From Amphiura filiformis (taxonomy: Eukaryota > Echinodermata > Ophiuroidea > Amphilepidida > Amphiuridae), in the NCBI RefSeq assembly GCF_039555335.1, contig NC_092628.1:30909409-30973408 (forward strand): a stretch of DNA of 64,000 nucleotides, written 5' to 3'. Positions 24,801-54,470 of the stretch are shown in pieces. Within the stretch, counting starts at the first letter, position 1. Each line of letters starts with the position of its first letter. The translations under genes and the position numbers were made by a program. A model generated the notes under the pieces. The model was not told the origin of the DNA, searched no databases, and was given only the letters and a program-made list of their open reading frames with translations.

Positions 24801-24892
24801 AAAAACTAGTTTAGATCTATGAATCTTTTGTCTGAAATAGACTTAACAGGTACTTATTATTCTGGTTTTTACATGTAGTTATACTGCATTAG

Positions 24893-34161: not shown

Positions 34162-34507
34162 GCTTAATGTGCCCAATCGTGAAAAAAGATCTTAATTACG
34201 TGCTTTTTTGTTCACGGATCATATCCCCATTGTCAATACAGAATGGCCCCCGGGGTTACTGCCTACGAGTCGGGAAACCATTCTTCACATTCCCCAAACT
34301 GGGTATCACCCGTAAAATCACAACATCGAAAATTTCTATAATAATTTTGTAGTTCTTAAAGTAAATGCAAAACCTGTCTGTAAAAACAGTCAAATCTGTA
34401 ATAAGTATTTTGCTGGGGTTTACAAACTGGTGAAAAAACAGAGCAAAACCTGTAGAAAGGGGAAAATTCTTTATACAACAGAAACAGTTTGTAGAAAACT
34501 TTTTAGC

Positions 34508-34575
34508 TGCAAGTCCCTGTGTTGTTGTTTAATGGTTTATGGAATGATCAACGTCTAGGCGTTGTGCCTGTGTAA
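34508..34575 (+). mobile_element. SINE body, fourth copy, internally deleted
   Basis: gtccctgtgttgttgtttaa, tggtttatggaatgat and atcaacgtctaggcgttgtg are present, but the middle segment seen at 32075-32130 is missing. A short, decayed copy. Confidence 0.8.
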
Positions 34576-34900
34576 AACCTTTTCCCCCGTCGATATTTCG
34601 CTTAATTATCAATATATTATAATACGATATACATGAGGTAAAACAAATATCTAAATATGTAGTTTTTAAACGCTGTCATATCTCTGTATGTACTCTGGCA
34701 TATATGTTGATTCAATGTTTTGTGTTATTGTTATTTAAAATGTTTTGTGGAGAGCCGGTGCAATTTTCAACACAATGGTTTATTTTGTTTTTGTCTGAGT
34801 GATCTAGAAATACATAATATCCCAGAGGTAACATATATAATGTTTGTATATACCGTCAGTTAAATGCAAGAAGGTAGCAAGTACATGGTATAATAATTAA

Positions 34901-35006
34901 GAGGTTGCAATTTCTTACGATTTGAAATTCAAAATCACTTCAAATGTAGGTAATTTTTAAAATTACGGCCGCAAGTACTAATAAAAGGCGTAAGAAATTG
35001 CAACCT
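34901..35006. mobile_element. tiny inverted-repeat element, about 106 bp
   Basis: aggttgcaatttcttacg faces cgtaagaaattgcaacct, a perfect 18-bp pair. TTAA precedes the left end (34897-34900). Confidence 0.65.
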
Positions 35007-35613
35007 GTCAAATAAAAAACACCAACTTAGCTTGCATTCATGTATACCACTCGTAACCTCTTTATCATCTTTATTCAAATAGAATTTGTTTATAGTAATA
35101 TAAATGTATTGGGAGATACGCGTATGGCGAATGATATTGAAGAAGGGTCGAATGTTGCCAATCTGCATGATTGACAAGCATTCTGATTAAAATGGATTTA
35201 TGAAATTTTTTATTGAATGAAAAGTTATAATTATTATATTTTATAATAAAATACATATTTCTATAATGTGACACGATCTAGTCCATGGGGGGCAAAGGAG
35301 GCATTTTTGAAAATTGAGTTATTATATCATATACTAAAAACACCACAGGTCTAGCATACTTGGTTCTAAAGTTACGGAGTATTATTGTCATGTATGTTAC
35401 TCCATATTTTTGCCTTTATCTCAATTTCAAATTTGCCGCCTTTAGCCTCAATGGACCAGACTGTGTCATATATATATGCTCTTTATAGTATCTTGTAAGT
35501 TTGTTGTTGCTGTTGTTTTTTTGTACGCAAAGAGCTAGAATTCTAAATTGGACATAAAACAGCCATTCCATCCGCGAAACAGTTAGAGGTATATTGACAT
35601 TTTGATGCAACAT
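35007..35613. other. non-coding stretch, nothing recognised
   Basis: No exon or repeat supported up to the Tc1-like terminus. Confidence 0.4.
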
Positions 35614-37156
35614 ACAGTCATCGACAAAAGTTTGGAATATTTTTATTCTTTTGCATAGCCCTGTTTTTTAAGTGCAGATTTCTTACCATCAATGGCCCGT
35701 CAGCCATGCGAAATGGATCACGGGTGTCTGGCAAGGTCTTAGGTACCATTCCATATCACACAATACGTAATGTAGGACAATGGCTTCTTATGCATGACCA
35801 ATGAACCATCGGGTAACCTTTTCGCAGTTATTTTAGCGATATGATTCATAAGGTTACATTGGCTTTTGCATACCGTGTTGCATCTGTCTGTTGTATACGA
35901 TATTTCTGATCATGGGGTGCGAGTTGAGTGCAGATTTATACGCCCGCGTCATTGACTTACGTAATCGCGGCAACTGAAGGATATTGGTGCCGCTTTAGGA
36001 ATTACATAAGGTACAGTTTCTAACATTTTGAAGAGACGTCGAGAGACCGGAACTACCACACATAGACCAAGGTTAGGTCGGCCCGAAAGACCACCGCCAG
36101 GGAAGACCGATCTCTCCTGAGACTTTGCCGCAATGGCCGCACGAAGCCTGCATCTCGGCTATGAACAGAATGGCTGAGGTCCATAAACGCGCCTGTTACC
36201 AGGAAACATGTGAACAATAGACTGGTTAGTGCATGTTTTTGCACAAGACGACCATTAAGAAAGCCGATACTTCTGCAAAGACATCGGCATACGCGCTTGC
36301 TTTGACAGCTCACAGAATCATAGGAATTTGACAGTAGGCCACTGGCGTAATGTGATCTTTAGTGACGTGGCCCGGTTCCTCCTCTACAGACAAGATGGCC
36401 GATTCAAGGTCCGATTGGTCAAGCCCTGCTTGAGTATTGTATCCTGCCTATAGTCCAGGGAGATGGTGTTGGAATCACAGTATGGGGAGCATTTCACAGT
36501 AGGTCGAAATCACACCTCTACATGCTAGAAGGACACATGAACCAGGACCAATTCCTGCATGTTCTTGGTACAGTTATCCTTCCGTTTGCAAGAAGAGACT
36601 TCGGGAACAATTTCGTTATCCAAGATGACAACACCACAGAGCCCTACGCGTAAGGGAATTCCTTGAAAATGTGAATGAAGAACATCTTGACTGCACTGGT
36701 CGGCTTTGAGCCCAGATAGACACGCCGTCGTTGCTTGGCTTGCTGGCGAGGTATTCCACAAGGAACCTTGGCAAACCTGGTCGAGGGAATGTTACTACGC
36801 GCACATGACCTTGAGCTGGCAAGGGGTGGACGCACATATATTGAGTTATGTTTTCTCACGTATATAATAAAAGACTTACCTGAACATGTCACAGTGAGAG
36901 TTTAAGTTTTGCTAGTGTCTTTAATCTCATTTTGTGATACAAAGACTGCGATTGTGTGATCCTTCCATTGGAATGCGCTTTCTCATGTAATTCTTTGTTT
37001 AATTGACAAACTGTGATGTAAACATCAAAGGACATTTGTATCTTTCAATTAAATTCAACTGAGAACTACTCCAGAACAATAAATCTGTTCCAAATATGAT
37101 TGAAAACTGGATTTGATACAAAAATAAAAATATTCCAAACTTTTGTCCATCACTTT
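35614..37156 (+). mobile_element. Tc1-like transposon, inactive, about 1.54 kb
   Basis: Inverted ends: cgacaaaagtttggaatatt then tttattc at 35623, against aataaaaatattccaaactt then ttgtc at 37124. The interior holds a degenerate Tc1-type transposase on the plus strand with several stops and frameshifts. It shows an N-terminal helix-turn-helix region (DIGAALGIT, GRPERPPPGKT), the FSD segment of the catalytic core near 36355, VWG near 36480, and an IQDDN block near 36620 in place of the usual QDNAxxH. It ends in a C-terminal MRRR..C.A...RGG-like tail. It lies just downstream of the macro-domain gene's stop codon. Confidence 0.9.
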
Positions 37157-37191
37157 TCACACACCACAGATCTATGTTCACTTTAGTCCCC

Positions 37192-37502
37192 TCAATAAAA
37201 CATTAAAATACAGGCAATAATAGCTATTACTATGCTCAAGATAATCTTGTATTTCTTCTGTTCTTCGGGGAACGATATCGATGATGTATTTGATGAAGCC
37301 ACGTTCTGTTTTTGATGACGACATTCTAAATGTTTGGAATTTTTCATCCATTTATGCAGTCTTTGACCAGCTTTGAAGGCATCGAATACATTCCCAGATG
37401 CTGTAACGATATTAACGCTACGCACGTGGATGGGATGATAGTAGGAGGCAAAATTATTAACGCCTTCAATTATATACAGAGCATCCGTTTTACTGCCGCA
37501 TA
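37192..37502 (-). CDS. macro-domain gene, last coding exon: end of second macro-like module plus tail anchor
   Basis: Acceptor ttttcttttccag (AG at 37503-37504); the reading continues from the exon at 38208-38372 with matching phase 1. The peptide CGSKTDALYIIEGVNNFA, then HPIHVRSVNIVTASGNVF, matches the last helix-strand portion of a macro fold. Compare YKAFDNFARQYRPEFLHLIQ in the first module. A polar linker of about 40 residues follows, then a hydrophobic segment IILSIVIAIIACILMFY that ends exactly at the stop codon TGA (37192-37194). A C-terminal stretch like this would make a tail-anchored membrane protein with the macro modules in the cytosol. Splicing is inferred from sequence only. Confidence 0.7.
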
Positions 37503-38207
37503 CTGGAAAAGAAAAAAATAAATATTGTGGTTTCTTATGAATTAATCTTAGCATACTTCCGATATCTGACTATACGTATATTAAGTCGTGAATGATTAAA
37601 GTGGTGTTTTAGGTGTCCGTAAAATGATTTGTTATGATGATTCAACGTCGCGGATAAAATCATCGCAGGATGTGATCTATGCAACCTTATTTATAAATCA
37701 TTATTTTATAATCATTCACTTTAGCCAGAGACACATTTGTGATGCGATCAAGCAAATATATAGAATGGTAAACAGGATTTACAAAGCTGCATTTTGCAGA
37801 ATATCTCATTGAAATTGAATATCTAGTTCTAAAGATATGAGCAATGAAAGTGTTTCTAAAACAAGAGGAAACAAAAGGAAATAATTTGTTTGACTATATC
37901 TCAAAGTCAACATTTCAGAGTTCTGACTAATTTTGCTTGATCGCATCACATTTATCCACCATACCATACGTATGCCTCATGCAACGACCAAGTTGTGTGA
38001 TTCAAGACCAATACCCCCCGTATTCTCTCTATTACACGCTATAAATATGCTAAGGCATATAAAGCTTTTTATTTTGATCACCTTTTCTTTGAAAAAAAAA
38101 GATGGGGGCGTGTATTAGATTGGGCGTCAATTTATGGTAAATGAATTACAATAGGTCACTTTTATTCTCAAGTATCTCAATATTTTTGAAAAAAAAATTG
38201 TTTTTAC

Positions 38208-38372
38208 CGGTTCGCTTGATCACAAAAGTGATTTCTTCAAAGCCTCGTTGGTCAGTAAGCCGTAGTGCCTTGTGGACCATATTCCGTAACCAGATATGCT
38301 TAACAGGTGACCTGACATCTTCCACAATCTGAAAAGTGCATGGGGATCGATTACCCAACTCAAATCGTATGC
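38208..38372 (-). CDS. macro-domain gene, exon with middle of the second macro-like module
   Basis: Acceptor tttctacgaag and donor accg|gtaaaa, both in phase 1. The exon's 5' boundary sits at the same position in the fold as in the first module (before GIR here, before GFR there). The peptide includes GIRFELGNRSP, IVEDVRSP, then NMVHKALRLTDQRGFEEITF. This parallels ITHFYEPTKLQNAVFMALRL and LADKEHLKSIVFPVL of the first module. The usual glycine-rich loop after ITF is absent. Exons for the start of this module are only partly found (see 40350). Confidence 0.7.
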
Positions 38373-38453
38373 CTTCGTAGAAAACGAAGATAAGACCTCC
38401 TGAGAACAAAGAAGTAGCAGGAATAATAAGTACAGTAAAGAATCAGCAGCAGC

Positions 38454-38465
38454 AGTAGCATCATT

Positions 38466-38549
<84 letters not shown>

Positions 38550-38551
38550 TC
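38454..38551. repeat. microsatellite (ATC)n, about 95 bp
   Basis: Nearly pure ATC/TCA triplets, in an intron of the minus-strand macro-domain gene. Confidence 0.95.
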
Positions 38552-38567
38552 CATTACCATCATTTAA

Positions 38568-38871
38568 GGCCCATTCAGTGATTTGCTCATCTGTATAATC
38601 GTTAAAATCATCAAAATTCAGATTTTGGTATCTTTGTCATTGTCATTGATGTGTAGCATAGCCTGCTAGCTGTGTATTTTTAAAAGACAAAATAAGGCAT
38701 TTACACGAATCTATAATTTAAATTAGCTACATGTATTTGAATGGGGCTTCAACTTCATCAATACTGCTGTTTTCTTCATGTTTTGCCAATTGTTTTCATT
38801 TCAAAAATACCAAATGACAATTTGAATGACTTATCCTTCACTTTTAAGCAATTTATGAATCACTGAATGGG
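38568..38871. mobile_element. MITE (cattcagtgat family), second copy
   Basis: Left end ggcccattcagtgattt, preceded by TTAA (38564-38567). The right end gaatcactgaatggg is the inverse. It shares caaaattcagattttggtat with the copy at 28685. The right-hand TTAA is not conserved. Confidence 0.75.
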
Positions 38872-38968
38872 ATCCCTGAATGGGTGTAAAGTGAAATCTG
38901 AATAACCCAATTTTAACATTGTTACAAATATTTTGTATTAATTCGAGGAATTAATAGTTTGATTCCCC

Positions 38969-39392
38969 ACACAAACCGAATTTCATTTAAAGAGGGGGTC
39001 GCGACCGCCATCCGATAAATCAACTGTAGATTCAGCCCTGCTAATCCCTCGTATCCCAATTAAACAGAAAACTCTGATTTCCAAATAATATTGTTTTATA
39101 CATTTCGCCTACATTTTTAAAGAAAAATTGCTAGCATTCGATTTCCCATTAAGCGACATATGGCATTCCAAACACCGAATTTCGTTTAAAGAGGAATCGC
39201 GGTCGCGTCCACCCATCCGTAAATCAACTTCAGATGCAGCACTGCAAATCCCTCAATTAAACAGAAAACTCAGATTTCCAAATATTATTGTTTTATAAAA
39301 ACTCAGATTTCCAAATACAATTGTTTTATACATTTCGCCTACATAGTTTTTAGAATAATTGTTGGCATTAGATTTCCCATTAAGGCATTCAA
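38969..39392. repeat. two-unit tandem duplication, about 200 bp per unit
   Basis: accgaatttcatttaaagag, aattaaacagaaaactctga, tttatacatttcgcctacat and gatttcccattaag recur in order from about 39173. The second unit has an additional internal duplication of aaaactcagatttccaaat. It lies within the proposed intron between the exons at 38208 and 40350. Confidence 0.8.
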
Positions 39393-40349
39393 CTACCGTA
39401 ACAATTGTTTGACAATAATCAAAATTACCACATGGAATCAGTGTTCTCTACTTCTCGGAAAGATTGCAATCAATTGCGTTATAACTACACCCTCAGCCAT
39501 CAATACCGACATGAATAAAAGACAAGAGCTCACCATAGCAGATGCGGAGCGTGGGTGTGTAGAAGCATTTGCTTTATTGTTCTCTTGTCTTTTGCTATTT
39601 CGTCGGCGAGATGAGATGGGAAATACCCATGAATTTCTTATGTAATATACCACCACATGCTTCGTAGAAAGAGGCCAGTTTGTCTCGAGGGTTTCCGTTT
39701 GGTGAAAAATTATGTAATTTGACTCTGTTCATTAATATATACGAGCGCATATCGTTCATATTTTACGAAGATGTCTCTTAATTTACAAACATGGATGTTT
39801 TCCAGTTGTTACCTCAGACACATTCATGCGTGTGCAGACTCATTCCCACACAACTAAACTGTTCATGAAAAGTATTTTTACACTTTGAATTGTCGTCATG
39901 TTTCACAATCAAAAGGGTATTGAGCAAATTAATCAGTTCACTGGATGAAGCATTTTATACTGCGAATTTTGACACCCAATTTGTTGCTCTGCGATTTCGT
40001 TAAAAAAAGTTATAATCATTTGAAAGGTAGGGTCGGATTTCAACAGTTGCAGTAGTAGTAGTGCCTAGTTTTCTATCCAAAGTGGTACTTGCTTTGTTGC
40101 GCGGCTTTTTCATTCAAACTTACAACACTTATGTTTGCCGTATGTTTGATTAAACGGTGAAAAGCATGGCTTTAAATGAAAATATGATCAATCGCAAATT
40201 GAGATGGGGCACAAGAATCACTGTAGATTTGCATCAAGCACAACAGGAGTCATAGAGAGAAACGCGGACATTTTAGAAACTGTCCTTCAGAAGTAACCAT
40301 CGGGTGGCCACTTCTAGGAAAGTCATCAACGTTCCCTGTATCTTCGTAC

Positions 40350-40517
40350 CTGTCTCTCCATCTCTTTACGGTTGAGTCTCAACTCGACGGACTGCCCTCT
40401 GACCAAAACACTGGCTTCTAAAAGGCCAATAATTCGTCCCTCTTGATGTTTGGTTAATTTCTCGGTTGATTCCACCATCGAAACCCGAGATTCGCTGCTT
40501 CTTGAATGTGATGGCTT
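40350..40517 (-). CDS. macro-domain gene, tentative exon: charged helix leading into second macro-like module
   Basis: Open for 56 codons, with a good donor gagacag|gtacga (GT 40349-40348) and an AG at 40519-40518. The peptide runs KPSHSRSSES, then KLTKHQEGRIIGLLEASVLV, then GQSVELRLNRKEMERQ. The last part resembles the first strand of the macro fold in module one (AVHVQLRQGDITRQ), though the GDIT motif is replaced by RKEM. The acceptor has a poor pyrimidine tract and lies about 10 bp from an inserted foldback element (40529-40835). The true 5' boundary may differ. The phase does not match the exon at 41337, so at least one small exon, or another boundary, is missing. Confidence 0.45.
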
Positions 40518-40528
40518 CTGTAGTGCGC

Positions 40529-40835
40529 ATACGCTGGCGAAGTTACGTAATAATCGGATTAACTACCATAGCAATAGGTGAAAACAATTCTTGAATATAC
40601 CGCGCTGTACTGAAACTTTCACGCGGTACCTCTGCATTGAACCATATCAGGCTGATCACTTGCACCTGTAAGATTAGTATCTTTGAAAAGATCAGTACTG
40701 TGTTCAATCTATGATTGCAGACATACACAGGTGATTAGTTCATCCGGCTTGTAGTGCAGCGCGATATGTTCAAAATTGTTTTCACCTATTGCTATGGTAG
40801 TTAATCCGATTTATTACGTAACTTCGCAAGCGTAT
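40529..40835. mobile_element. foldback/MITE, about 307 bp, next to a tentative exon
   Basis: Left arm (gaagttacgtaataatcgga, ttaactaccatagcaatagg, tgaaaacaatt) and right arm (aattgttttcacctattgct, atggtagttaatccgattta, ttacgtaacttcgc) are almost perfect inverses over about 60 bp. Weaker pairing extends to about 90 bp. Confidence 0.9.
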
Positions 40836-41336
40836 AATGATTGAAGCGAATCCAGATTGACTCCTGTTTTCCATTGTCATTAATCATACATTTTCTTCTT
40901 GTCATTGCTTTTCTTCGAATAATTAACCAGGCGGCAATCATGATAATTTTTCGCACAATAAAGCAAGAACTGCATTGGATGCGCACCCAGAAACTTATGC
41001 AGGATACCTTGTATAAGGGCTACTGCAGCTTTTCTTATCTGACAATACAACAAGATCGCAGAGCAACAAAAGGTATCAAAATTTGCAATATAAAATGATG
41101 CATCCAGCGATTTTATTGATTTACTTAATACCCTTGTGTAACGATATTTTTGCGAGCAGTTAATTTATTCAACTACCCGCGCACACCCCAACAGTCTCCA
41201 TACAAGCACACATAACACCCTACCCACACACCCCTACATATGGGTGTCGAGACATCTGTTCTCGGTCCAATCTCTTCAGATTATAGTAAAACGAACTGCT
41301 ATGCGAATCGAATATTTTACTTCAGGCTATACATAC

Positions 41337-41483
41337 TTCTGGACACCCCGAAAGAGCTGCCATCACCCCAGCTACCATCGTAGCCAAGTCTGTTGAGGGC
41401 CAGGTTGATCTCATTACTTTCGTTTACGCCTTCAGGGACGACAGGTGATCTTTGTGTATACCACTTTTCGAGTCCTTGGTAAT
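41337..41483 (-). CDS. macro-domain gene, linker exon with Gly/Ser/Trp-rich segment
   Basis: Acceptor ccatccttccag (AG at 41485-41484) and donor ccagaa|gtatgt (GT 41336-41335), open for 48 codons. The phase matches the upstream exon at 42013 exactly (one base left over there, two supplied here). The peptide includes YQGLEKWYTQRSP, ESNEINLALNRLGYDGSWGD and GSSFGVSR. I do not recognise a domain. Inferred to be inter-domain or a small independent module between the two macro-like regions. Confidence 0.65.
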
Positions 41484-42012
41484 CTGGAAGGATGGCAATG
41501 TTTGAAACGTTTACATGTAAGTTGATTGGTAGAATTTGAATAAAATAGAACTACGATGCACGCGCTGTTATGAGACATCTGACAAACAACAAAGAAAACA
41601 GGTTTGTTTAATATTTAAAGAAATATTTGGTCGATGAAGAAAACAAGTTATTCTTTGATCTAGAATATGCAAGTAAACATGGGATTTTGTACATCAACAA
41701 AAATATCATTCGGCAATATCTACCAGAGACCAAATTGGAATAAACCACATTGCTCACATGAGATTAAATACTCCAGAAGGCAAAACAAGCAACATCCCAT
41801 GTTTATTACAGAGGCTATAATAGATTCGCGTGTATTTGTCTTGGGCAGGGGCTATTGTATGCACTAAGTGTGCATCTTAATATTGTCAACTCTTCTTTAT
41901 CATTAATATTTTTCAATTCACTCAACTTTGATTGTTGACATAAATTCATATCTTCACCTTCCTATAGAAAGTATGGGTATGTGTTGAAGTGTTTACGGAA
42001 ACACTAACTTAC

Positions 42013-42181
42013 TTGTTATTTTGTTACTGTCATTATCAACGAAGTATTCATCGTCGTCACCGTCGTCGGTACAGAACCCGACGACTGCATGAGACCCATT
42101 CTGTCTGGGAATGCTGTCTTCATCATCGTCGTCCTGGATATACCTCACTATCAAAGTGACGCCTTCTAACTGCTCTGTAGT
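42013..42181 (-). CDS. macro-domain gene, acidic linker exon
   Basis: Acceptor ttcatttcttgcag and donor aataacaa|gtaagt, both strong. Starts in phase 0 and ends in phase 1. The peptide begins TTEQLEGVTLIVRYIQ and continues with acidic clusters (DDDDEDS, DDGDDDEYF). Probably a flexible, negatively charged linker after the first macro module. Confidence 0.75.
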
Positions 42182-42235
42182 CTGCAAGAAATGAACATTT
42201 TAAAGTTGTCGTCGCAAGGTGTTTTTTTTTAATTT

Positions 42236-42274
42236 TGTTTATTTATCTATTTATTTATTTATTTATTTATGTAT

Positions 42275-42357
<83 letters not shown>

Positions 42358-42381
42358 TTTGTTTAATTATTTATTTATTTT
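42236..42381. repeat. microsatellite (TTTA)n, about 145 bp
   Basis: Long tttattta run with single substitutions, inside an intron of the macro-domain gene. The same unit on the other strand appears at 11039-11168. Confidence 0.95.
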
Positions 42382-42560
42382 TTAATTTAAAACTTTAGTC
42401 CAAATAAGTCTGACAACTTTCTCAAGTGCATGACAGCTGAATAAGTGATACTAATGTATGACAAATCTAAATCCTAAGAAAATCCTGTTAGACTAGTTCA
42501 TGAGCAGTTGTACCGCACTTGGAAAAAAAGTAAAGCTAACAAAAATAATTTCATCCATAC

Positions 42561-42787
42561 CGTACATATCATACCAGTAGCTTCCAAAACTTCTCTCATC
42601 GGTTCCTTGTACATTACATCAACAAGTGTAGACGATTCATGGAGTTCTCTTACGGCCAAATAGAAATTTTCAGTTCTCCTATCTGGTACAACTATTTGAA
42701 TCAAATGTAGGAATTCCGGTCGATATTGACGAGCGAAGTTATCAAATGCTTTATACAAACTGGAAACCAACTGTTGAAGGCTATCAC
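42561..42787 (-). CDS. macro-domain gene, exon with last part of the first macro domain
   Basis: Acceptor tttttttatcaacgaatag (AG at 42789-42788); donor tgtacg|gtatgg (GT 42560-42559). Two bases complete the codon left by the exon at 43841, and the exon ends in phase 0. The peptide DSLQQLVSSLYKAFDNFA, then YRPEFLHLIQIVVPDRRTEN, corresponds to the final helices and last strand of the macro fold (family pattern: amphipathic helix, then L..I.iV.fD). The canonical GTGxxG/F loop expected just before this helix is replaced by LDCSDS. Confidence 0.8.
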
Positions 42788-43082
42788 CTATTCGTTGATA
42801 AAAAAAAGGTAATGATCAAAATTTTGTCAGTCAAACAAAATAATGGGACCACAAAAAAACTGGAGTACACACTCCGCCTCCAAGTAGACTCATCCTGAAT
42901 TCTTTCTCGGTACTTCGATTATATATTCACGTTTTCATTTATCATCGTCTGATCATTATTAACATAAAGTTACATTATTAATCAAAACCCCCAGCTGAAG
43001 AGCCCAATCCACAATAGTGTAAAGGTTTGAGCAAATCATCGATACATATACACATAAATAATGCGAACAAGTAAACCTGCAA

Positions 43083-43175
43083 ATGTGTGTCTCAACCCCA
43101 TTAGCTCAGTTGGTAAAATTCATGTTTTCAAAAGCGCTCGATAGTAAGCACACATATGCTAACTATCGAGTTTTT
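43083..43175. repeat. tRNA A-box-like remnant with adjacent dyad
   Basis: ccattagctcagttggtaaa resembles a tRNA 5' half, but no B box follows. Instead there is a dyad (ctcgatagttagcat against atgctaactatcgag style, 43138-43170). Perhaps a SINE head fragment. Not a functional tRNA. Confidence 0.35.
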
Positions 43176-43840
43176 ACGGTATTACGCTCATACAACCAAA
43201 ATGATGATGACCAACTTCATTATAATATTTCAGACAAATAACGGAAACAACCTGTACAATGGGAGCCATGATTTGAATGCACGCCATGTTTTCCTGGTCC
43301 AGGTTGTTTGTTTGCTGTAATTAGTTGGCCGAGAAAAATTGGGCGACCAAATCTGATGCAATATTTTGGAGAATTCTATAATACATGGAAATGGTCAATT
43401 TTGTGAATATTTGTACTTACATGATAGGACGAATCGTAAAACAACATGCACAAACCGTGAATTTAGTAAAATTCATCAAGAAAACACTATAATTATGTAT
43501 TATTATTATCTTTATTGAGTTTGAAGTCGTAGTGATTTTAAATAATATCACCATACATATTTCTATGGTAAGGTGTTTCAACCAATGGTTCGCGAGTTCA
43601 AATTATGTGGTCGCAGAACTACCCATGACAGAATGAAGAAGCCGGGGCGAGAGTTCATTGTGTGATGTGTAATGTAACATTTGGTTAAGGCATATATTAC
43701 GTCTTGCTATTTCAAGAAACTAGGGTCACGTACAAAAAAATAGGAACCCCTACTGTATAGATTTTTTTCACAGTAGATACATTTTAAATAATGGAAAATT
43801 ACGATATCAATTGATATGTATAATATTCTACACTACTCAC

Positions 43841-44008
43841 TGCAGTCAAGGACTGGGAACACAATCGATTTCAAATGCTCCTTATCTGCTAAGCGAAGGG
43901 CCATAAACACAGCGTTTTGAAGCTTTGTTGGTTCATAAAAATGGGTGATATGAATTATTTTCTTCTGTCGAAGGTTGCCTCCAGATGTCATAATAACACG
44001 AAACCCAC
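43841..44008 (-). CDS. macro-domain gene, exon with middle of the first macro domain
   Basis: Acceptor ttgattttgacag, donor gactgca|gtgagt, phase 1 at both ends. The peptide GFRVIMTSGGNLRQKKIIHI, then NAVFMALRLADKEHLKSIVF, is strongly macro-domain-like. The pattern 'TxGGxL..K.IIH' followed by 'A...AL..A......SI.FP' is typical of the macro repeats in PARP9/PARP14-type and related proteins. This exon gave the first clear identification of the gene. Confidence 0.85.
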
Positions 44009-44079
44009 CTGTCAAAATCAATTGAGCAAATAAACGTTAAAACAGTAGCAATGTTGGGAGCAACAACTGTGGCAACAAT

Positions 44080-44301
44080 AAGGGAACGTTCACAAACACT
44101 TGTTAGGGGGCTGATGAAAAAAAAGCATCACGACATTTTTCGCCCCCCTTTTGACATGAAAATTATGGGTCAACCCCATAGAAAAGCATATAAACTCAAT
44201 TTTTGTGGTCATTTTTTCATTGACCCCTTAGGAGGGTCAAAACTTTCCAGGCCCCCCTTTTGCATCAGAACCCCCTAACAAGTGTTTGTGAACGGTCCCT
44301 A
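44080..44301. mobile_element. MITE, about 222 bp
   Basis: Left end aagggaacgttcacaaacac then ttgttaggggg; the right end is its inverse (ccccctaacaagtgtttgtg, aacggtccct). Lies in the intron between macro-domain exons. No coding capacity. Confidence 0.9.
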
Positions 44302-45245
44302 ACCGAGTGCAAGAACAAAAACGACGCGGTATAAGGCAATAGCAAATTGTAACAATGGCAACTGCTACATCCACACAGCGTTACACCATACACGCCATTG
44401 TTACATTTTCAGAAATATTCGGTGTCTTATTGTTGAAGTATGGTAAGCATGTTAGTCGCTCGGAAGGCACGAATACCTTACAACGCTGCACGAATGCACC
44501 GCTCCGTGGATGTACCAGCAATCACAAAAGCTTCCTAAAGAAACATTAATAAATAGGAAAAGTACAGATTTCGCAGCTTTAGTTGAAGGAATAGCTAAAA
44601 TATTTAAAACAGTATCAACCAGAACAGTAGCAGCAGAACCCAACAGCATCAACCATAATGATCAACTAATTAATATTACACGGTTGTGTGATGTGAACAT
44701 TTACTAATTTTTCTAACAAAACATTATATAATGTTCAATTATAAACCTGAACAATACCAATAGTTATCACACTAATATACACATATATTTTAGTGGAAGG
44801 AGCTATTTTATAGCTATTTTTAACATATATTCTCGTTTCTATATCAAATTATTCATAATTTTCTGCTTTTTTGTAGTAATCTTTATTCTATACATTTGTT
44901 TGCAAACTGAGGGCGCTATTTACATACATTTTAAATTTAAATTGGCCAAAAATTAGTTTTTTGACAAATTTCCTTGCAATTTGTTAAGTCTTTTTTCTGA
45001 TGTGTTAATGCCATTATACGAGTGTCTATCCCTTCTAAAGATGCAAATAAGATGTAAGATACAAAATAGCGCCACCGTTGTTCACCTTTTCTTTAAAATA
45101 ATTACAGTTTACATGCCAACAAACAAGCGTGATTACAGCAACGTGAACAATGCAGAAAACAAAACAGTACAATGATTGTCCGAAAACGGTACTATGAATG
45201 TTCAATTAATGTGTAAAATGTGTCATATTGATTGATATCGCCTAC

Positions 45246-45332
45246 CTTTCACCCTCATGGTCAAATATTCACTTTCTACCCTACTTCCAGCTGCCTCCAT
45301 GATGACCATGGCTGAACTCGGTGTTGACACTC
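45246..45332 (-). CDS. macro-domain gene, short exon in the first macro domain
   Basis: Acceptor attatattcatgaacag, donor gtgaaag|gtaggc, open for 28 codons plus split codons at both ends, phase 1 in and out. The peptide VSTPSSAMVIMEAAGSRVES then EYLTMRVKG aligns with the macro helix region usually written GVA.AI..AAG..l..ec. It joins the exon at 48873 to that at 43841 without a frame break, which is the main support for a real gene. Confidence 0.8.
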
Positions 45333-45570
45333 CTGTTCATGAATATAATTATGACAAGATGCTTTAGATTATTTAACTTCTTCGTGCTAATTAATCTGGT
45401 CATTACACTGGAATCTCTATAACTGTCATACTGCAGTTACTGTCCGTTTTCCTATACACAATACACAGTGCTCTCACCATTGACGCGCGACCTTTACAAA
45501 TAGTGTATGTTAGAAGTATATTGCATTTGCCTAGTTAACATCACTGTGTGAAAAATAACCGGCCAATATT

Positions 45571-45901
45571 TAAACTATTCTCCAAACTTCTAGCAAATAT
45601 ATTTCTCTAACATGACCTAAAATTACAGCTAGGTAAAATGTTCAGAAATAGTCGCACTTTCGTAGAATATGAGTGAGGGCAAAGCATAGCTAGCTCATAG
45701 CTAGCCAACTCCCCGTGTTAATTGAATGGAGATTTGACCGAAAATATTGAGCTATATTGGTAACGGACCGCTCCGTTCTGAAGGATGCCAAAAAAAAACG
45801 GTACAAGCTACATTTAAACTATTCTATGAAATTCTAGAAAATATGGTTTTGTAACATGTCCTAAATTGTTAGCTAATTTAGGTGTTTCGAAATAGTCGCA
45901 C
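45571..45901. repeat. direct repeat, two units about 85 bp, 245 bp apart
   Basis: ttaaactattct, ttctag, aaatat, acatg.cctaaa and aaatagtcgcactttt recur in order at 45571-45657 and 45815-45901. Located in the intron of the macro-domain gene. Confidence 0.65.
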
Positions 45902-47257
45902 TTTTTGTGTTTTAGGAAGGATATGTAAACGACAGATAACACCAAAAATATGAAGAAATTATTTCCAAACCGTGTTAAGTCAACAATCATTATGTTGCTC
46001 ATTTTCAAGAATGCTGGTTAACAAAAAGCAGGCCATTGTCTCATTTCGTGAACAAAGGTCCACATACCATTGTTTCCTTGCGTTTCCTTTATAATCAGTT
46101 ACCCAACTGAAGCTGTATTATAGCACATCATAGCGATACCGCACATATAAAACAGACACATGTGCACAACCAGAGAAAATCCGATTTAATCAGTTGAGCT
46201 GTTTCAATGAGTGTTATCTTGGTTAATAGCTTTTAATGGGGTTTAAGTCCTGCAAAGGTCGAGATGAATTCTACTGTAGACATGACTGCATCATGTTTGG
46301 ATATGTTTTAATACCATTTTTGAAAATCTAATAAATCTATCCTGACTTGAAAGTTGAAAATATGCAAATATCGTCTGCTCACGAGGGCCCATTTTAAAGC
46401 CAGTGGGTGGCCGGTCGAGCCATATTTTTCCAGTTTTAACCATTTAAGTAAGAATGCGTTTAGGATTATATTAAAACGAAGGTGTATCCCCCTCCCGAGT
46501 AAAATTATGCACATGAGTTGGAAATGATACCTTTTTATTTATAATGAACCCTGTTGTCACAATTGTTTTGCGTTTCCAAGTGCGGTAGTACCCATTCTAC
46601 CTCTTCAGTGCTTTCATGCTGTTACATTAAGGTTAGTTGCAAGTCGTTAAAATGTAAGTCATTTGTCCCAACTTGCACCTAAATGGAATCAGTCAAATGG
46701 GTTGTGTTTGTAGGTCAACAGAGCAAAGTTCGACATGAAGTTCATTAATTCATAAATTATGACTTTCCTCTTCTAGAATTACATACGGTCAAAATAGCCA
46801 GTATTGTTTCTTTCACTTTACTTTGTTTTTTCCCCACAATTAGTATTATTTCAGCAGCATGAGTCTAGAATAACAAATTTAAAATCTGAAGGAAATCGTA
46901 CATTAGGGTTTTAACCATAATAGACGCTGCGTGGAAAGAAATGCATTAAAAAAGTGACAGTGAAAACCAACAGTATTTGGGGAATAAAGAACAATCTGCG
47001 GCAAATCGCACATTATTGCTTTAAGTGCTGTTACAAATCAGCCGTTGTATACTATGTAGCTTATACTGGACAATGAGCATTGTGTACATGTTAAGTCAAG
47101 GGCAATAGACATTTTCAGAAAATATGTAGTGCCATTCTGGTGCTATTATAACAATCTGATCCACACCACTCCACGCCATACATAAATTCTCCAGGTCACA
47201 TTTCCCCAATATGAAATTTAAAAAAAGTAAAATTATAATTTTACTTTTTTTAAAAGT
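45902..47257. other. intron sequence, nothing else recognised
   Basis: Part of the 3.5-kb intron between macro-domain exons at 45246 and 48873. No extra exon of matching phase was seen. Confidence 0.45.
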
Positions 47258-47341
47258 TGACAGAGGCGGGGTTCGAACTTACGGCGCACCGCTTTGGATA
47301 CTCTATGAACCTAGCGCCTTAGACCGCTCCGCCACTTGTCT
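47258..47341 (-). mobile_element. tRNA-Leu-like relic or SINE head
   Basis: The minus strand begins gacaagtggcggagcggtct then aaggcgc, and ends with gttcgaaccccgcctctgtc, 84 nt with a long variable-arm layout as in type II tRNAs. The acceptor stem pairs only partly and the T-stem is poor (gtaag against cccgc), so I rate it a pseudo-tRNA. The A-box phrase ggtctaaggcg is shared with the relic at 11205-11330. Confidence 0.55.
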
Positions 47342-48872
47342 TGTTGGTATCCATCTAAAACTTATTTGAACATATAATCGCAACTTCAACATAGGCCTAC
47401 CACGTGGCAAGCAAAGGCAGAAAATGTACCATATTTTGGAATTTTATTTGCCTAAAAACATTAATGTGTATTAATACCATTATTTATATTGTTGAATTCT
47501 TAAGCGCATACAGACAATTAATACGAGGGTACTATGATACACATATTAAATCGATTTTGATTTCGACCACGTGCTCTGCAGTACATCGGGTCGGTTGCGA
47601 GGTATGGCCAGTCAGTCTACCATTTTTCTTGTATACACGTTCGATGTTTTTATCAATTATTTAAAAAATCCACATTAGACTCCATTTTTTTTTCCAGGAA
47701 ATAAAAAGTTAGATTACCATAAAAAGGAAACAGTAATCTGTGGTGGGGTCTAATGTAATCTTTACATCGAATTTTCAACGTTTTTTCTATCCTTATTCTT
47801 GCTCAATTAAAAAAATATTTTGGCCTATATAAAATTGAAATAAAATTCTCTGCCTCTTAAACGACATCAAATGTGCCACAATTTGGTATCAAGAATCGTT
47901 ATATATGATGTGCCGTAAATATTCATATTCCTTTTATACATAGGATGCTTCAATTTTGACACAAAAATATTTCATTCGGCTATTTAAATAAGGTAACCAC
48001 GCTTCCCTAGAATGTGCAATAAATTAGCATTAAAAGTTGTCTTATTTTAGCAGCATTCTAAAAACTCTTGCCGTTTGACGAATAGAGGAGTAAATCTGAT
48101 CGCAGCACACGTGAAATCTAATTGATTTTAGTTACCATGGTTACCGTGGGCTTTCAAAGCATTTCACCGAGATATAAAAAGCACACATTACCAACAGCAT
48201 ACAAAATATATACATTATAGGTAAACAATGCAATACGCTTTAAAAACCAGTGAGTTAAAAGGCTGTCTATGGTATATAGTCTGGAGCCTTACGTCATTTG
48301 GTGAGAAGTTCATGTTTATTTTGTTGTTTGAACTGAAATCTAATCTACATGGACTACTAAATCAAATGAACTATGCTGCAAATTGTTCTGACAGGTTAAG
48401 GGGGTCAAACCCAAGATGGCGGGTAAGTTTTCAAAATCAACTTGGTCCTCAAAATTCTTCCTCCAATCATAAAAAACCAAAAAAGTCAATGATCGCACAT
48501 CTCTAGGATGATTGATTAATGAGTTACATGGTAAAATATTTCAATATTCTCTGATGAAACGAAAATGGTCTCCAACTATTCAGCTTATGGTTAAAACGGC
48601 AGGTCAAAGGGAACCAGTATTATAACCACCATATGATCCTATGTCACCATGGTTAACTTAATCATATTATACCATCTAGCAATTTCAAGTTCAAAAATCA
48701 AAATAAACATGCAAGTCCTACGGGAGGCGATTTGGCTACGTAAGGCACTGTACTAATATGCGATACTGACACTGTGAACTACAGTTTGTCCAGCCCACAC
48801 AATAAATAGCAACAATGGATATTAATTAATTAATTAAAATAATGTAGAAGTGTCTTTAAAAACAAACCTTAC
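47342..48872. other. intron sequence, nothing else recognised
   Basis: Remainder of the macro-domain gene intron. A plus-strand open stretch (48228-48506) has no recognised domain. Confidence 0.4.
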
Positions 48873-49017
48873 CCGAAGCATGTTCTCTGAACCAACTTGG
48901 TCTGAAATTGATGATTGCATCCGTCTTTTGACGTGTGATATCGCCTTGACGAAGTTGAACATGTACGGCTTGTTCTGTCCCTTTAATTGGCAAATACGCA
49001 TCCATAGCAATCACAGT
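48873..49017 (-). CDS. macro-domain gene, first recognised exon (N-terminal macro strand)
   Basis: Acceptor gcattttgtag (AG at 49019-49018), donor gcttcgg|gtaagg (GT 48872-48871). The reading of 48 codons includes MDAYLPIKGTEQ, then AVHVQLRQGDITRQKTDAII. The 'V.l.qGDIT.qktDAIIN' phrase is the hallmark first part of a macro domain. The following NFRPSWFREHASG replaces the usual NAAN..L..GGG. A Met at 49003-49005 could be the start of translation if the AG is not used. Otherwise earlier exons lie further upstream, and I found none. Confidence 0.8.
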
Positions 49018-49227
49018 CTACAAAATGCTATTTCTCGGTAATTATGCATGCCAATTAATTGCCATGAGACAAACTAACGTATTCTTTAAACTATATCACC
49101 TGACTCGATACATGTCGTATTTCGACACTAGAGTATTGAGCACATTGTATTATTGTTATCACATGTGCACAGGTATCTGATTGTCCGTAAATAGACCACA
49201 GACGTATTCTCGTATAGCTGCCATTAA

Positions 49228-49896
49228 GGGCTCTGGTATCAGCGTTTCGACAGTATTTTTTGTGGGACATGAGAGCACATCAGACATATCGAATTACATT
49301 CTGAATACGAAGAATGCCGTTCTGATTTCAAATAATTTAGATTTTTTGAAATTCGCGATATGATACACATTTCATGGTAAATGATTAAAAACTGATATTT
49401 TTGATATTTTAACAGTCCTCGAAGTAAACTTTATAAATCTAATGATATGTACTTAAAGTGTATGTAGCTGGGATGAAAAGCCGACGATCATTTGAAAATT
49501 TTAACCTTTCGTATTGAAGATATGGAATTTTTCCCCAAACACCCCCAAAAATTGGTCTTTTTGGGGAAAAAATGTATATCTTCAATATGAAAGGTCACAA
49601 GTTTCAATTGATCGTCGGCTTTTCATCTCAGATACATACACTTTAAGTATATAGCTTTAGATCTATAACGTTTATTTCGAGGACTGTTATATATCGAAAA
49701 TTAAAAAAAATATCACATTTTAATAATTTGTCATACAATTTGTATAATATCGCGAATTTCAAAAACAATCTAAATTATTTGATACCGGAAGGATATTCTT
49801 CGTATTCAGAATGCAATTCGATATGTCTCATGTACTCTAGTGTCCCACTAAAAACACTGTCCAAGCGCTCATACCAGAGCCTCGGGACCAGAGCCC
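49228..49896. mobile_element. 669-bp near-complete palindrome with TTAA target duplication, copy 2
   Basis: Same family as 25579-26202: gtgggacatgagagcacatc, cagacatatcgaattacatt and aaaagccgacgatcatttg on the left, mirrored on the right. The loop is slightly larger, around ccccaaacacccccaaaaat. TTAA flanks both ends (49224-49227, 49897-49900). The ends read gggctctggtatcag and accagagccc. Confidence 0.9.
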
Positions 49897-49900
49897 TTAA

Positions 49901-50606
49901 ATAATCACATTCTTGTTTACGTGAGCATAATGTCCGCCTTTTTCATCGATGAATCTATAAATTTTTATATTCTAAGCGCGCTTCAATCACAGGGTTGCAT
50001 AGTTACGCGTACGTACGCACTTCCGTATCCAGTTGGGACTATATTTGGTATTTCATGACATTGTATTTCTTAATTACAATAATTATCGAATATAATAATT
50101 TACTTTTGGTGTTGATCACCATATAGCAGCCATAGATTGAAATAGTTCTCATATTTTTGCTATATTTAGCTGCTTTGACGTATACAACTTGAACTGATTA
50201 CAACTGACCCGAGTCACCTGCATGTATTATGCATATCGACACCCTCATAACCTAATTGCCGAAGTTAGTTTTTGCAGTTTTGAGGAAAAGGCAAAAAACT
50301 GACAAAATTAATAACTGTGGTGTTGGTGTTATTTTGGGCATAATGTGCATAAGATTTACGTATTAAATAATAAAGACAACGTCACTGATATAGTGGTACA
50401 ACGGTCTTGGAATACCTGTCTGAAAATACATAAATAAATTGAAATAAATTGCCTCTCACAGACTTCGGCAGAAAATCATTAATGTGTGTGAGGGCGCTCT
50501 CTATTGTAATAATGGTTACAAGGATAGCAGATAGGGAGACTGATCCCCTCTAATAGGCCTATACATGTTTATAAATTATATTTGACCATATTTAAATATG
50601 CACTTT
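49901..50606. other. non-coding stretch, nothing recognised
   Basis: No exon found upstream of the macro-domain gene's first recognised exon in this part. AT-rich. Confidence 0.4.
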
Positions 50607-50645
50607 TAAGAAACTAAACGGCTGTTCAAGAAACTAAACGGCTGT
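50607..50645. repeat. perfect 19-bp tandem duplication
   Basis: aagaaactaaacggctgtt occurs twice in a row, separated by one c. Looks like a recent replication slip. Confidence 0.9.
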
Positions 50646-50689
50646 TAATAAGATAAAGCGTCGCCCTATTCGCATATCAAGGTGCTTCA

Positions 50690-50945
50690 TTATGTACACC
50701 ACCAGATTCCTATTACTGCCGCCCTAGAGGTACACTACTGTCCAGCTACTCTGTGTGTACCCGAGTGGGTACCATGGTTACTATACCAGTGCAGTAGTGC
50801 ATGTGTGTACTGTGTGATTCCGATGTACATGTACGTACTTTAGAACAGATTCAGTCTCTAGAGTACCAATGAAGTAACTGCGCGGCAGTGTACCTCTGAA
50901 CGCCAGCAATGAGAATCTGGTTGTGTACTGTGGTGTACATCTAAT
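50690..50945. mobile_element. foldback element, about 255 bp
   Basis: gtacaccaccagattcctat and agaggtacactactg face cagtgtacctctgaacg and gagaatctggttgtgtactg. No coding capacity. Confidence 0.7.
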
Positions 50946-51604
50946 CTAGCAAGTTATGATACCCAGTTCGGTATTATGTACTCGATATTGTCAAGATGTA
51001 GGCAATTAGATAATGACAATATAATATAACACAATACAATCGGTAATTACAACACTTGAACTTTGATTTAATACTATTGTATCACGTCTCACATTAGTAC
51101 AAGGTCATCTTATATTCCATTTGGGTGATTTGGTCAAAAATAATGACAAAATATGCTATTTAGATATATTGTTAAAATATTATAGTATAGGAATGTCGTG
51201 TTATTATGTGTTTTGTGTGGTAAATCGTCTTATTGGCTTTTGATTGAAATATGAGGGCACTCTTCATGCTTTGCATCAGACAGGAGACTCAAAATCATGC
51301 AACTACCCAGCAAACACGAAATGTTTCGGCACCATTCGCAAAAGGTTAGAAGACGTTGTCAGACGTTTAAATGTCGGGTTATAAAAAGGGTACATAAAGG
51401 ATATCAAACGTTTTCATAACCTTCAATATATTTTTGATAACTTACTGCAAATATTTTAACATGATATTATTTTTAGTGTTGACAAAATATTTGGCAAAAA
51501 AGGTTTGCACAAAATATTTTACAATAATATTTTGAAAACATGTTAAAAATATTGTTGTAGTGTGTTTTCATACAAAACGTTTTAAACGTTTTCATGACCT
51601 TAAT

Positions 51605-53209
51605 CAGTGGACTTCGGTTGTATATATAAATGCGCACGTGACATCTACAAGTCGCCATACCGTATTAAACGATATAAGGTACCCGGATGTACATAAACTC
51701 CCCGTGCAAAAGTATAGGGGAAAATGACAGGTCGCAAGGAAAATTGCTTTTGCAAAATAGTGGCATTGATTGCAAAGGGTAAAATAACTTGACCCGAAAG
51801 ATAAACTCTTTATTAACGTTTTCCATCACGGAAAAAAAATAACTACGGAAAAGCTAGATATAGCTGATTTACAAACTTATATTTCATAATTTCCGTGCTA
51901 AATGGGCGTGCCAATTGGCCATATCTATGACGTAGTGCTGGTTTCATACTATCATGCTGCTTGCCGCCGAGCGGCGTGACACACGCGCATTGTAGACAAA
52001 CAGACACAATCAAGACTTGTGAATGGCTGATAAGTCATGCCTCTTGTCGCAACGGCATGAAAGTATGAAAGGGGACATGATTGGCTTTAAGGTCAGACTG
52101 TGCAGGCGGCGGATCGAGCCGGCAACATGTGAAACCGCCCGGCCGTATGGCATTTTCCAATATACAGCTCAACTTACCGTACTTTGCCTAACCAGACAGT
52201 CCATGCCAAAATTATTACTACACCTTTACATTTCATCGAATCTCTTTTTGATGTCTGTCATTTTGAACATCACACTTGAAAGATGTATGCTATGTAGAAA
52301 CTTTATTTTGCAATTTCATAATTTGCATATTATTAGCATATTTGCAAGAAAAAACATGAAAATCAATAAATACCTATATTTTTCACAATTTCAATATTTT
52401 ATTAGAAATTAAGCATGTAGGCCGTTTGTTATGACTTGATGAATGAAGCTGTTAAAACAGATTTTGATATTTTGGCTTATTTTTCCTTTTTTGCCCCAAA
52501 ATGTGTAAAAATCAACATTTTTTGGATGACCTATATTTTCTTTGAATATTTATTTAGGTATAATACAGTGCAGAAAAAGATGTCAAAAAAATCTGTTAAA
52601 ACAGATTTCCAATAAATTGTTCCATTTTCGGTTAAATACTCAATTTTCATGCGCGGGATATTTGAAACATAAAATGAAAACATGTCCATTGCACTTTTTC
52701 CTCGAGATGTACTATAATATCAAGGTTACGGATATATTATAATCCCTTCTTATCTTCACTGATCCATCAGATACCTATTGTTATGAATGATCAATGAAAA
52801 GGTTCAGAACTGGGCTACTAATGGCCTGTCAAGTATCTATAGTTATTTTCATGACTGTGTCAACTCAAAAATCATGCAAGGTCGAATGTAGGAAAAGTAT
52901 GATCAGTTGAGCTGTAGTCGGTTAATTTTGTGGGGTTCATTATCGAACCCCAATGGTTTTAGCTTGTATTTATATTATTTATCAACATAGGCCTATTTGT
53001 TTGTGATATTTCAAGCGTTTTAAAATTTCAAAATAATCCCATTCAATTACACGGTTGACGATGAAAATTTACTGAATTTAGAGAATGCAATGCGGCCACC
53101 ACCTGGAACTGTGGTCGCAATTTCAGTGATTGACAGTGAGGTAACACGAACATGGCACTGGCCATCTGGTCACGTGCGCATTTATATATGCGCATTTATA
53201 TATACAACC
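51605..53209. mobile_element. 1.6-kb non-autonomous transposon with about 37-bp inverted repeats
   Basis: The left end cagtggacttcggttgtata then tataaatgcgcacgtgac is the inverse of the right end (gtcacgtgcgcatttatata, then tacaaccgaagtccactg). Both ends are flanked by TTAAT, so the target duplication is TTAA or TTAAT. The right arm has a short internal duplication of tgcgcatttatata. The interior has an open run of 129 codons (52023-52412) with no recognised domain and no transposase. Confidence 0.85.
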
Positions 53210-53224
53210 GAAGTCCACTGTTAA

Positions 53225-53650
53225 TATTGCTTACTTGCTTACTTGCTTAAGATGAGTGGTGTCCTCGAACTACAACAGCACGCCAAACCCTTCTGTCCTG
53301 CATGGCCGTTCCCAAATCCATAACATCCAGTCCAGTGTCCTGTTTCAATACATCCACGTATGTTAGAGGGGGTCTACCAGGTTTTCTGTTTCCATGTTTT
53401 GGTGTCCAATGGATCAGCTTAGCTACAGGTTCATTTTTGCTTCTGTATGCGTGCCCAGCAAAACGTGTCCTCCTCTCTCTGATCTTCTGCGAAAGTTTCG
53501 GTAGGTCACCATATAGCTCTTTGTTCGTGATGTGCTGCTTCCAATTGATGTTGTATACTGATCTAAGCATTCTTGTGTAGCAACCATCAAGTTCTTTACA
53601 TAGTCTGGGAGACATAGTCCACGCTTCACATCCATAGGTTAGTATAACCA
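53225..53650 (-). pseudogene. 3' fragment of a non-LTR retrotransposon (reverse transcriptase C-terminus)
   Basis: The minus-strand peptide starts YGCEAWTMSPRLCKELDG, then NWKQHITNKELYGDLPKLSQ, KIRERRTRFAGHAYRS, RKPGRPPLTYVDVLKQDTGL, and ends RAVVVRGHHSS with stop near 53247. YGxExWTL and RRxxxxGHxxR, followed by a GRPPLTY.D.L..D tail, are typical of the C-terminal region of LINE endonuclease-reverse transcriptases. No catalytic YxDD portion remains. The 3' end is followed by an aagtaagc tandem tail (about 53225-53245), as in LINEs with microsatellite tails. 5'-truncated on insertion. Confidence 0.8.
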
Positions 53651-54365
53651 GACATTAACCCTAGAACTACTGAGCCATATTTTGCAACAACCCCCCCGCC
53701 AACGCCATATACCGTTGAATTTGGTACTAATGTATTGTTATGGGTCGCCTCTATCCAGTGATACCAAAATAAGTATAAACATTCCCCACATAATGTCGCT
53801 ATTGACGTCATAATGTGAGTGCGCCAAATTTGGGAGGTTCTGGATATGTACAAACGTATAGGCAAAATTGATTTTCAGCTAAAAATTCTATAAAAATGCG
53901 ATTTTCAGCGAATTTTCTCCTAAACAACAAGTAAAAAATCAGTAGCTCCTGCAATAATTTCACAAGAGTGAAATGAAAATCATTGGGGCCTCACCAACCC
54001 CACTCTATGGTAATCTTTGATGGCCGGTCCTACAGTGGGTAATGTGCTGGGGTAAAAACGTTATCACTAAAATGAACGCAAAGGATGGTCTACGTTTAGC
54101 TTAAGTCGTTTGGGCGTAAATGCGTGCGTTCTTTTTATGACGGATAAAACATCTTGGGGTCGTATATAGTTCTAAGTGTACGCAGTTACTTCATAAGGCC
54201 AATAAATAATAAGACTCATATCTGTCGCTTGCGTTCGGTTTGCAGTGCATTCGCAGAAATTAAATTTCCCCCATTGAAAAAAATAAAATAAACAAAAGTA
54301 TTAGTAAAAGATATGTGTTTATACGAGTGTGACGGTAGGAGCCATATTTATCAAAAAATGTTTTT
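53651..54365. other. unannotated sequence between nested elements
   Basis: Contains a C-rich patch (caacccccccgccaac, about 53689) but no supported exon. Confidence 0.35.
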
Positions 54366-54470
54366 TTAATGATATGAAAACGTTTTATACCCTTTAAATG
54401 CTCTTTATAAATTATGACCCGACATTTAAGCAACCTTTTAAAACCTTTTGCGAATGATGTCAAAAATGTT

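Follow-up and report, generated by a model that had tools for sequence, protein, structure and literature searches.

A brittle star gene encoding a macro-domain protein of PARP14 kinship with a hydrophobic C-terminus and no recognised PARP domain

What kind of protein does an animal gene encode when it carries a macro domain, ends in a hydrophobic segment and shows no PARP domain? This question is raised by a minus-strand locus of the brittle star Amphiura filiformis (assembly GCF_039555335.1, contig NC_092628.1), whose eight exons lie within positions 37192..49017 of the window, by which we mean the whole stretch of 64,000 nt that was analysed (positions 30,909,409 to 30,973,408 of the contig's forward strand). 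The explanation that we prefer, and in which our confidence is about even, is that the gene encodes a derivative of the PARP14 family without its transferase, which would be tethered to a membrane and would act as a non-enzymatic scaffold or as a weak reader of ADP-ribose. The evidence comes from the gene model, from the macro domain encoded by exons 1-4 (module 1), from the more diverged product of exons 5-8 (module 2) and from the C-terminal tail.

A preliminary description of the locus had proposed a chain of eight exons. Eight minus-strand exons at its coordinates do join into one open frame, and all seven internal junctions have a GT donor and an AG acceptor, while two of its borders had to be moved. 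Since the TAG directly upstream of 49017, where the chain was said to begin, is an in-frame stop and the acceptor there is weak (44th percentile), translation probably starts at the ATG at 49005-49003. The start of exon 7 should be corrected from 38372 to 38399, as the acceptor at 38399 (99.8th percentile) outranks that at 38372 (97.0), leaves the phase unchanged and adds nine residues. Percentiles rank acceptors among AG sites, and the consensus used was of the human type. With both corrected ends the product is 477 amino acids long, and the intron phases along the gene are 1-1-1-0, followed by 1-1-1 and the stop codon. The features of the gene are as follows.

48873..49005, minus strand: exon 1, from the probable start ATG; first strands of macro domain 1, with the QGDIT and DAIIN motifs
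45246..45332, minus strand: exon 2, catalytic-loop region of macro domain 1 (SGVS...MEAAG); phase 1/1
43841..44008, minus strand: exon 3, macro domain 1 from SGGNLRQKKIIHI to FPVLDC; within the Pfam Macro stretch
42561..42787, minus strand: exon 4, last helix and strands of macro domain 1 with IQIVVPDRR, then linker; enters in phase 1 and leaves in phase 0
42013..42181, minus strand: exon 5, acidic; by phase at the position of exon 1 within a second cassette; acceptor 99.5, donor 99.4 percentile
41337..41483, minus strand: exon 6, containing Gly and Trp; by phase at the position of exon 2; percentiles 98.4 (acceptor) and 92.8 (donor)
38208..38399, minus strand: exon 7, counterpart of exon 3; acceptor 99.8, donor 94.3 percentile
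37192..37502, minus strand: exon 8, counterpart of exon 4, continuing through a linker and the hydrophobic tail to a TGA stop; phase-1 entry; acceptor 99.8 percentile
37195..37251, minus strand: hydrophobic tail of 19 residues (YKIILSIVIAIIACILMFY), which runs up to the stop codon

In seven of the eight exons the sole open frame is the frame that the chain requires (exons 5 and 6 are each open in a single frame), and exon 1 is open in two. For comparison, random nearby non-coding stretches of equal lengths were open in a random frame in 17% of cases at 87 nt, in 0.5% at 227 nt and in 0/4000 at 311 nt, which is an incomplete test, as the exons had been chosen because they are open. Exons 5-8 also show a biased base composition by codon position, with a chi-square of 41 that was reached by 9/1000 controls assembled from non-coding stretches nearby, and G stands at codon position 1 with a frequency of 0.32 against a control mean of 0.18, a value reached by 1/1000 controls. 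The acidic exon 5 contributes to this bias, and exons 6-8 alone gave a chi-square of 18.3 (a figure without a control). By these measures exons 5-8 look coding, and we infer that the gene is transcribed as modelled.

Several sequence elements lie in or beside the gene. An ATTAAA on the minus strand at 36920-36925, ~270 bases past the stop codon, is a possible poly(A) signal. If the donor of exon 4 is left unused, the frame stays open through 42498-42560 for another 20 codons, which include a short hydrophobic stretch (WMKLFLLALLFFQV), and then meets a stop, giving a possible alternative end. Just upstream of exon 7, at 38460-38640, a (GAT)n tract is preceded by a coding-looking acidic stretch in another frame (FDDFNDYTDEQITEWALNDG), and a phase-compatible cassette of 33 nt could be read there. 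On the other side, ~220 bases upstream of the ATG that probably starts translation, a large imperfect fold-back element occupies 49229-49881, with inverted arms of 119, 68 and 130 nt that are 82-88% complementary; it may lie in the promoter.

Module 1, the joined exons 1-4, passes the Pfam Macro model (PF01661) with 30.8 bits against a cut-off of 22 (E 3e-7), which bears out the complete macro domain that had been described there. When module 1 itself was left out of the profile (5 human and 80 prokaryotic domains), residues 17-178 of the joined protein still matched with 68.2 bits; the prokaryotic domains were the best 80 of at least 167 macro loci in bacterial and archaeal genomes, and since the alignment used to pick them has module 1 as its first row, this profile lacks full independence. 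A profile built from the five human macro domains alone is the cleaner control, and it gave 51.5 bits. Among the 2191 stop-to-stop open reading frames (ORFs) of at least 20 amino acids in the window, the module-1-free profile ranked exon 3 at the top (32.2 bits, E 8.4e-9), followed by exon 1 (24.9 bits, from a profile that holds no protein of this window) and by exon 2 (5.4 bits, non-significant alone); all three lie on one strand in the order that fits a macro domain, and the donor of exon 1 (CGG/GTAAGG) stands at the 99.9th percentile. Exon 4 was not among the best nine matches listed for that profile. With profiles that include module 1, exon 2 alone scored 22.7 bits and exon 4 alone 22.0 and 53.0 bits, and exon 4 alone was detected solely by such profiles. 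Among the best nine matches listed per profile, no further convincing macro exon was found in the window, and the next matches were at background level. As judged by sequence, module 1 is certainly a macro domain.

Its nearest solved structure in a search of the PDB was the PARP14 chain 4abk (E 9.5e-8, residues 19-167 of the joined sequence), followed by the PARP15 chain 3v2b (E 3e-6); we take these chains to be PARP14 macro domain 3 and PARP15 macro domain 2, respectively. In a tree of the five human and 40 of the 80 prokaryotic macro domains, which leaves out macroH2A, MacroD, GDAP2 and TARG1, module 1 grouped with PARP14 macro 3 and PARP15 macro 2 with an ultrafast bootstrap of 100. Because the best prokaryotic pairwise score to module 1 (136) slightly exceeds that of PARP14 macro 3 (130), and the tree is limited, the kinship rests on the tree together with the PDB search, which place module 1 nearest to these two domains. 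Ten NCBIfam families of the ADP-ribose-binding/deacetylase equivalogs (PRK00431 series) matched module 1, all far below cut-off (at best 38.5 against 252 bits). Among viral contigs no relative was found, whether the search used the domain alignment or the whole protein.

The absence of a PARP domain from the preliminary description agrees with the Pfam search, in which no PARP, WWE or RRM domain was found in the joined protein. Minus-strand ORFs of at least 45 amino acids were scanned on both sides of the gene, and no PARP domain was found in 10 of the 26 upstream (49018-55500) or in 8 of the 23 downstream (33000-37191), a scan that short exons could escape. Of the features that mark clade 3 PARPs (PARP14, PARP9 and PARP15), the protein thus has a domain of the PARP14 macro 3 lineage and no detected catalytic domain.

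In macro domains, the Asp after the first strand contacts adenine, and the glycine-rich loop is the diphosphate loop. The alignment shows that module 1 has kept the Asp of GDIT, the DAIIN motif, GV and SGGNLRxKxIIH; the Asp of QGDIT, in exon 1, is invariant in a three-sequence alignment. The hydrolase motifs are absent: NFRP occupies the site of NAAN, and SGVS that of the GGG glycine loop. For both the NAAN motif and the glycine-rich catalytic loop, roles in MacroD-type hydrolases are described in PMC7729036. At the phosphate loop, the GTGNAKQ of PARP14 macro 3 aligns with DCSDSLQ, which holds no glycine and is followed by a gap of three residues, and a five-residue insertion follows GVST. We considered that a wrong splice site between exons 3 and 4 might hide a fuller loop; by eye, no alternative site that would restore it was found. 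Because the hydrolase motifs are absent and the phosphate loop is shortened, module 1 would be a weak reader at best, and it has presumably lost catalysis. The suggestion that the protein serves ADP-ribose signalling at a membrane, put forward as a hypothesis at the outset, is weakened by the same two features.

The hydrophobic tail is real in sequence and ends at the stop codon as had been described. The last 19 residues of the protein have a Kyte-Doolittle mean of 2.46, compared to 0.99 for the best 19-residue stretch that starts more than 45 residues from the end, so that the protein has a single hydrophobic segment, at its extreme C-terminus, as is expected of the sequence of a tail anchor. 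The charged residues EEQKKYK stand directly before it, and when exon 8 alone was modelled with AlphaFold2, the tail was the sole confidently predicted helix. The tail is a putative membrane anchor.

The preliminary description had further claimed a second macro-like module, preceded by an acidic linker and a Gly/Trp-rich exon. The comparison of exons 7+8 with exons 3+4 gave a score of 73, which was reached by 0/5000 shuffles. Taken one by one, exon 3 against exon 7 gave a Smith-Waterman score of 46 (0/2000 shuffles as good) and exon 4 against exon 8 a score of 45 (2/2000), compared to at least 186/2000 shuffles for each of the remaining 14 cross pairs of exons. The introns 3/4 and 7/8 are both in phase 1; they share a column in one alignment and stand ~2 residues apart in another. 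By this similarity, modules 1 and 2 are paralogous in their C-terminal halves. Within each gene half all three introns are in phase 1, the intron that separates the halves is in phase 0, and this repeated 1-1-1 pattern suggests a duplicated four-exon cassette, in which exons 5 and 6, the supposed linker and Gly/Trp-rich exon, hold the places of exons 1 and 2. The second module finds support in its C-terminal half only, its N-terminal half being unrecognisable. The idea that exons 5-6 plainly encode the N-terminal half of another macro domain is not borne out by sequence comparison and is a matter of exon bookkeeping only.

Module 1 resembles PARP14 macro 3 and PARP15 macro 2 in the GDI, GVS and GGxLxxKxIIH motifs, and differs from them in that they lack the five-residue insertion after GVST and have the GTGN loop. 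More remote cases share parts of the architecture. Coronavirus nsp3 has several macro domains, not all of which bind ADP-ribose, ahead of membrane segments and without a PARP domain; it belongs to a viral polyprotein that carries many further domains, and its macro kinship to this protein is remote. To our knowledge, PARP16 (ARTD15) has no macro domain, and it has a transferase domain where this protein shows none. In TM-macro ThsA, of the bacterial Thoeris defence, the membrane part lies ahead of the macro domain, an order that differs from the C-terminal position of the membrane segment here.

Further likenesses are taken from the literature. PARP9 (BAL1) has, like this protein, two tandem macro modules and no active transferase: it combines two macro domains with an apparently inactive PARP domain (PMC4245714), and in contrast to the brittle star protein, which has a hydrophobic tail at its end instead, it retains a PARP-fold domain and a split KH domain (PMC10450202). 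PMC4245714 reports PARP9 orthologues in vertebrates only, and describes PARP14-like genes as frequently duplicated in animals, sometimes as neighbouring copies. PARP16 is a tail-anchored PARP (PMC10450202) and so, like the present protein, a protein of the ADP-ribose pathway with a C-terminal membrane segment (PMC10450202, PMC4245714); in PARP16 a short helix facing the lumen of the endoplasmic reticulum comes after the membrane helix (PMC10450202), whereas in the present protein the stop codon directly follows the tail. TM-macro ThsA combines a macro domain and a membrane segment without PARP (PMC11204291), as this protein does, and is unlike it in being bacterial and in having one macro domain with a working nucleotide pocket; the macro construct of that study spans residues 62-278, and nucleotide-induced macro oligomers would cluster the TM domains (PMC11204291). 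For this reason the claim that no described family is known to pair macro modules with a C-terminal membrane anchor and to lack a PARP domain was, as worded, too wide. A search with PADLOC gave no match for the brittle star protein at E up to 1. For an animal macro-only protein with a C-terminal anchor, no description was found among the titles, abstract openings and passages listed from a full-text library that leaves out most subscription papers, which is weak evidence of absence. Fusions of macro and PARP domains to adaptor domains of the immune type occur in molluscs and cnidarians (PMC8195603), so that the reuse of such modules in invertebrates is unsurprising.

According to the explanation that we prefer, this would be an intact animal gene that goes back to one for a macro-domain protein of the PARP14 type and has lost the ADP-ribosyltransferase part. 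Its four-exon macro cassette would have been duplicated, the second copy would then have decayed, and a C-terminal membrane anchor would have been gained. Once translation is complete, the tail would insert into the membrane of an organelle and leave both modules on the cytosolic side. Module 1 would have weak affinity for an ADP-ribosylated partner or a nucleotide, or would bind protein only, and module 2 would serve protein-protein contacts. A scaffolding role of this kind is putative, and so is any link to immunity.

A number of observations weigh against this explanation, most of them on the side of module 2. It matches neither Macro nor any other Pfam family at cut-off and has no credible match in the PDB search. 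Exon 1 against exon 5 and exon 2 against exon 6 show no significant similarity, with 1055/2000 and 1666/2000 shuffles as good. With the module-1-free profiles its C-terminal half reached only 3.2 and 3.6 bits (E ~0.6 and ~0.5), scores that exceed the best of 200 shuffles (1.8 and 0.9). In hhalign comparisons with the broad family, module 2 as a whole obtained a probability of 12% (E 0.0024) and its C-terminal part one of 20%; there 0/60 shuffles were as good, and with the human-only profile 6/60 shuffles were equally good. The AlphaFold2 model of exon 8 alone had a mean pLDDT of 57 and a pTM of 0.26, with three helices, no strand and no macro half-fold. Some of the splice sites are middling (exon 4 acceptor at the 75.9 and exon 6 donor at the 92.8 percentile), and a hydrophobic end is necessary, yet insufficient, for membrane insertion.

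The rival explanations take up different parts of this evidence. Module 1 could still be a working ADP-ribose reader, which would recruit mono- or poly-ADP-ribosylated proteins to the membrane as the macro domains of PARP9 and PARP14 do elsewhere in the cell. The retained Asp of GDIT, DAIIN, GV and SGGNLRxKxIIH speak for such a reader, and PMC11204291 reports that PARP14-type macro domains bind ADP-ribose without catalysis; however, a phosphate loop that is three residues shorter than in PARP14 macro 3, where it reads GTGN, and free of glycine makes strong binding doubtful, and we regard a working reader as rather unlikely. That the ligand would be a nucleotide, and that its binding would lead to macro oligomers and hence to clustered membrane segments as in TM-macro ThsA, is a proposal in which we place little confidence: the protein shares both ingredients with that system, a macro domain and a membrane segment without PARP, but the two come in reversed order, PADLOC gave no match at E up to 1 and the phosphate loop is degraded.

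Two other alternatives concern the gene rather than the pocket. Exons 1-4 could belong to a separate transcript from exons 5-8, as two genes or as alternative ends, for example if exon 4 is read through to the stop after ...MICTVWMKLFLLALLFFQVRYNCS. The donor of exon 4 (ACG/GTATGG, 98.0 percentile) is not the best of the set, and read-through there meets a stop 20 codons on, after the short hydrophobic run (ORF 42498-42815). Set against this are the paralogy of exons 7-8 to exons 3-4, the fit of the joined frame and its phases and the strong acceptor of exon 5, and such a split is improbable in our view. It is very improbable that the locus is a decaying pseudogene fragment of a PARP14-like gene: both domains are worn, no ADP-ribosyltransferase domain was found and the fold-back element lies close upstream, but 477 codons run free of stop and frameshift over eight exons with intact splice borders, and exons 5-8 carry the codon-position bias.

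Elsewhere in the window, a divergent neighbour begins on the plus strand at 55553-56053 with an exon that holds the start of a sodium:dicarboxylate transporter of the SLC1/EAAT type (Pfam SDF, E 9.3e-24); together with the introns and the PARP14-type domain, this exon points to an animal genome. The plus-strand stretch 23778-25218 holds an ORF for a protein that begins MGCCFSSP and looks lipid-modified by eye, for which Pfam gave nothing at E up to 1; its C-terminal part recurs as a second, partial copy at 24893-25213. The minus-strand ORF at 53247-53654 looks like the tail of a retrotransposon reverse transcriptase, and Pfam likewise gave nothing for it at E up to 1. Two fragments, at 36053-36653 and 40300-40560, look like a Tc1-type transposase; five ORFs overlapping the former had no transposase match in Pfam.

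If the match of module 1 alone holds, the gene is an ordinary diverged relative of PARP14. If the preferred model is true, a PARP14-like protein is shown to have lost its transferase, kept its macro modules and moved to a membrane, which would provide a testable case of the reuse of an ADP-ribose-pathway part and an animal architectural counterpart of the bacterial TM-macro effectors. Marine invertebrates reuse macro domains in immune-type proteins that are specific to a lineage (PMC8195603). A bolder proposal, which we offer as speculation and consider improbable, is that the gene represents an animal family descended from a PARP14-type gene that gave up its transferase, its macro cassette having become a tail-anchored receptor or scaffold, convergent with TM-macro ThsA, that would sense NAD-derived or ADP-ribosyl signals at a membrane in invertebrate immunity.

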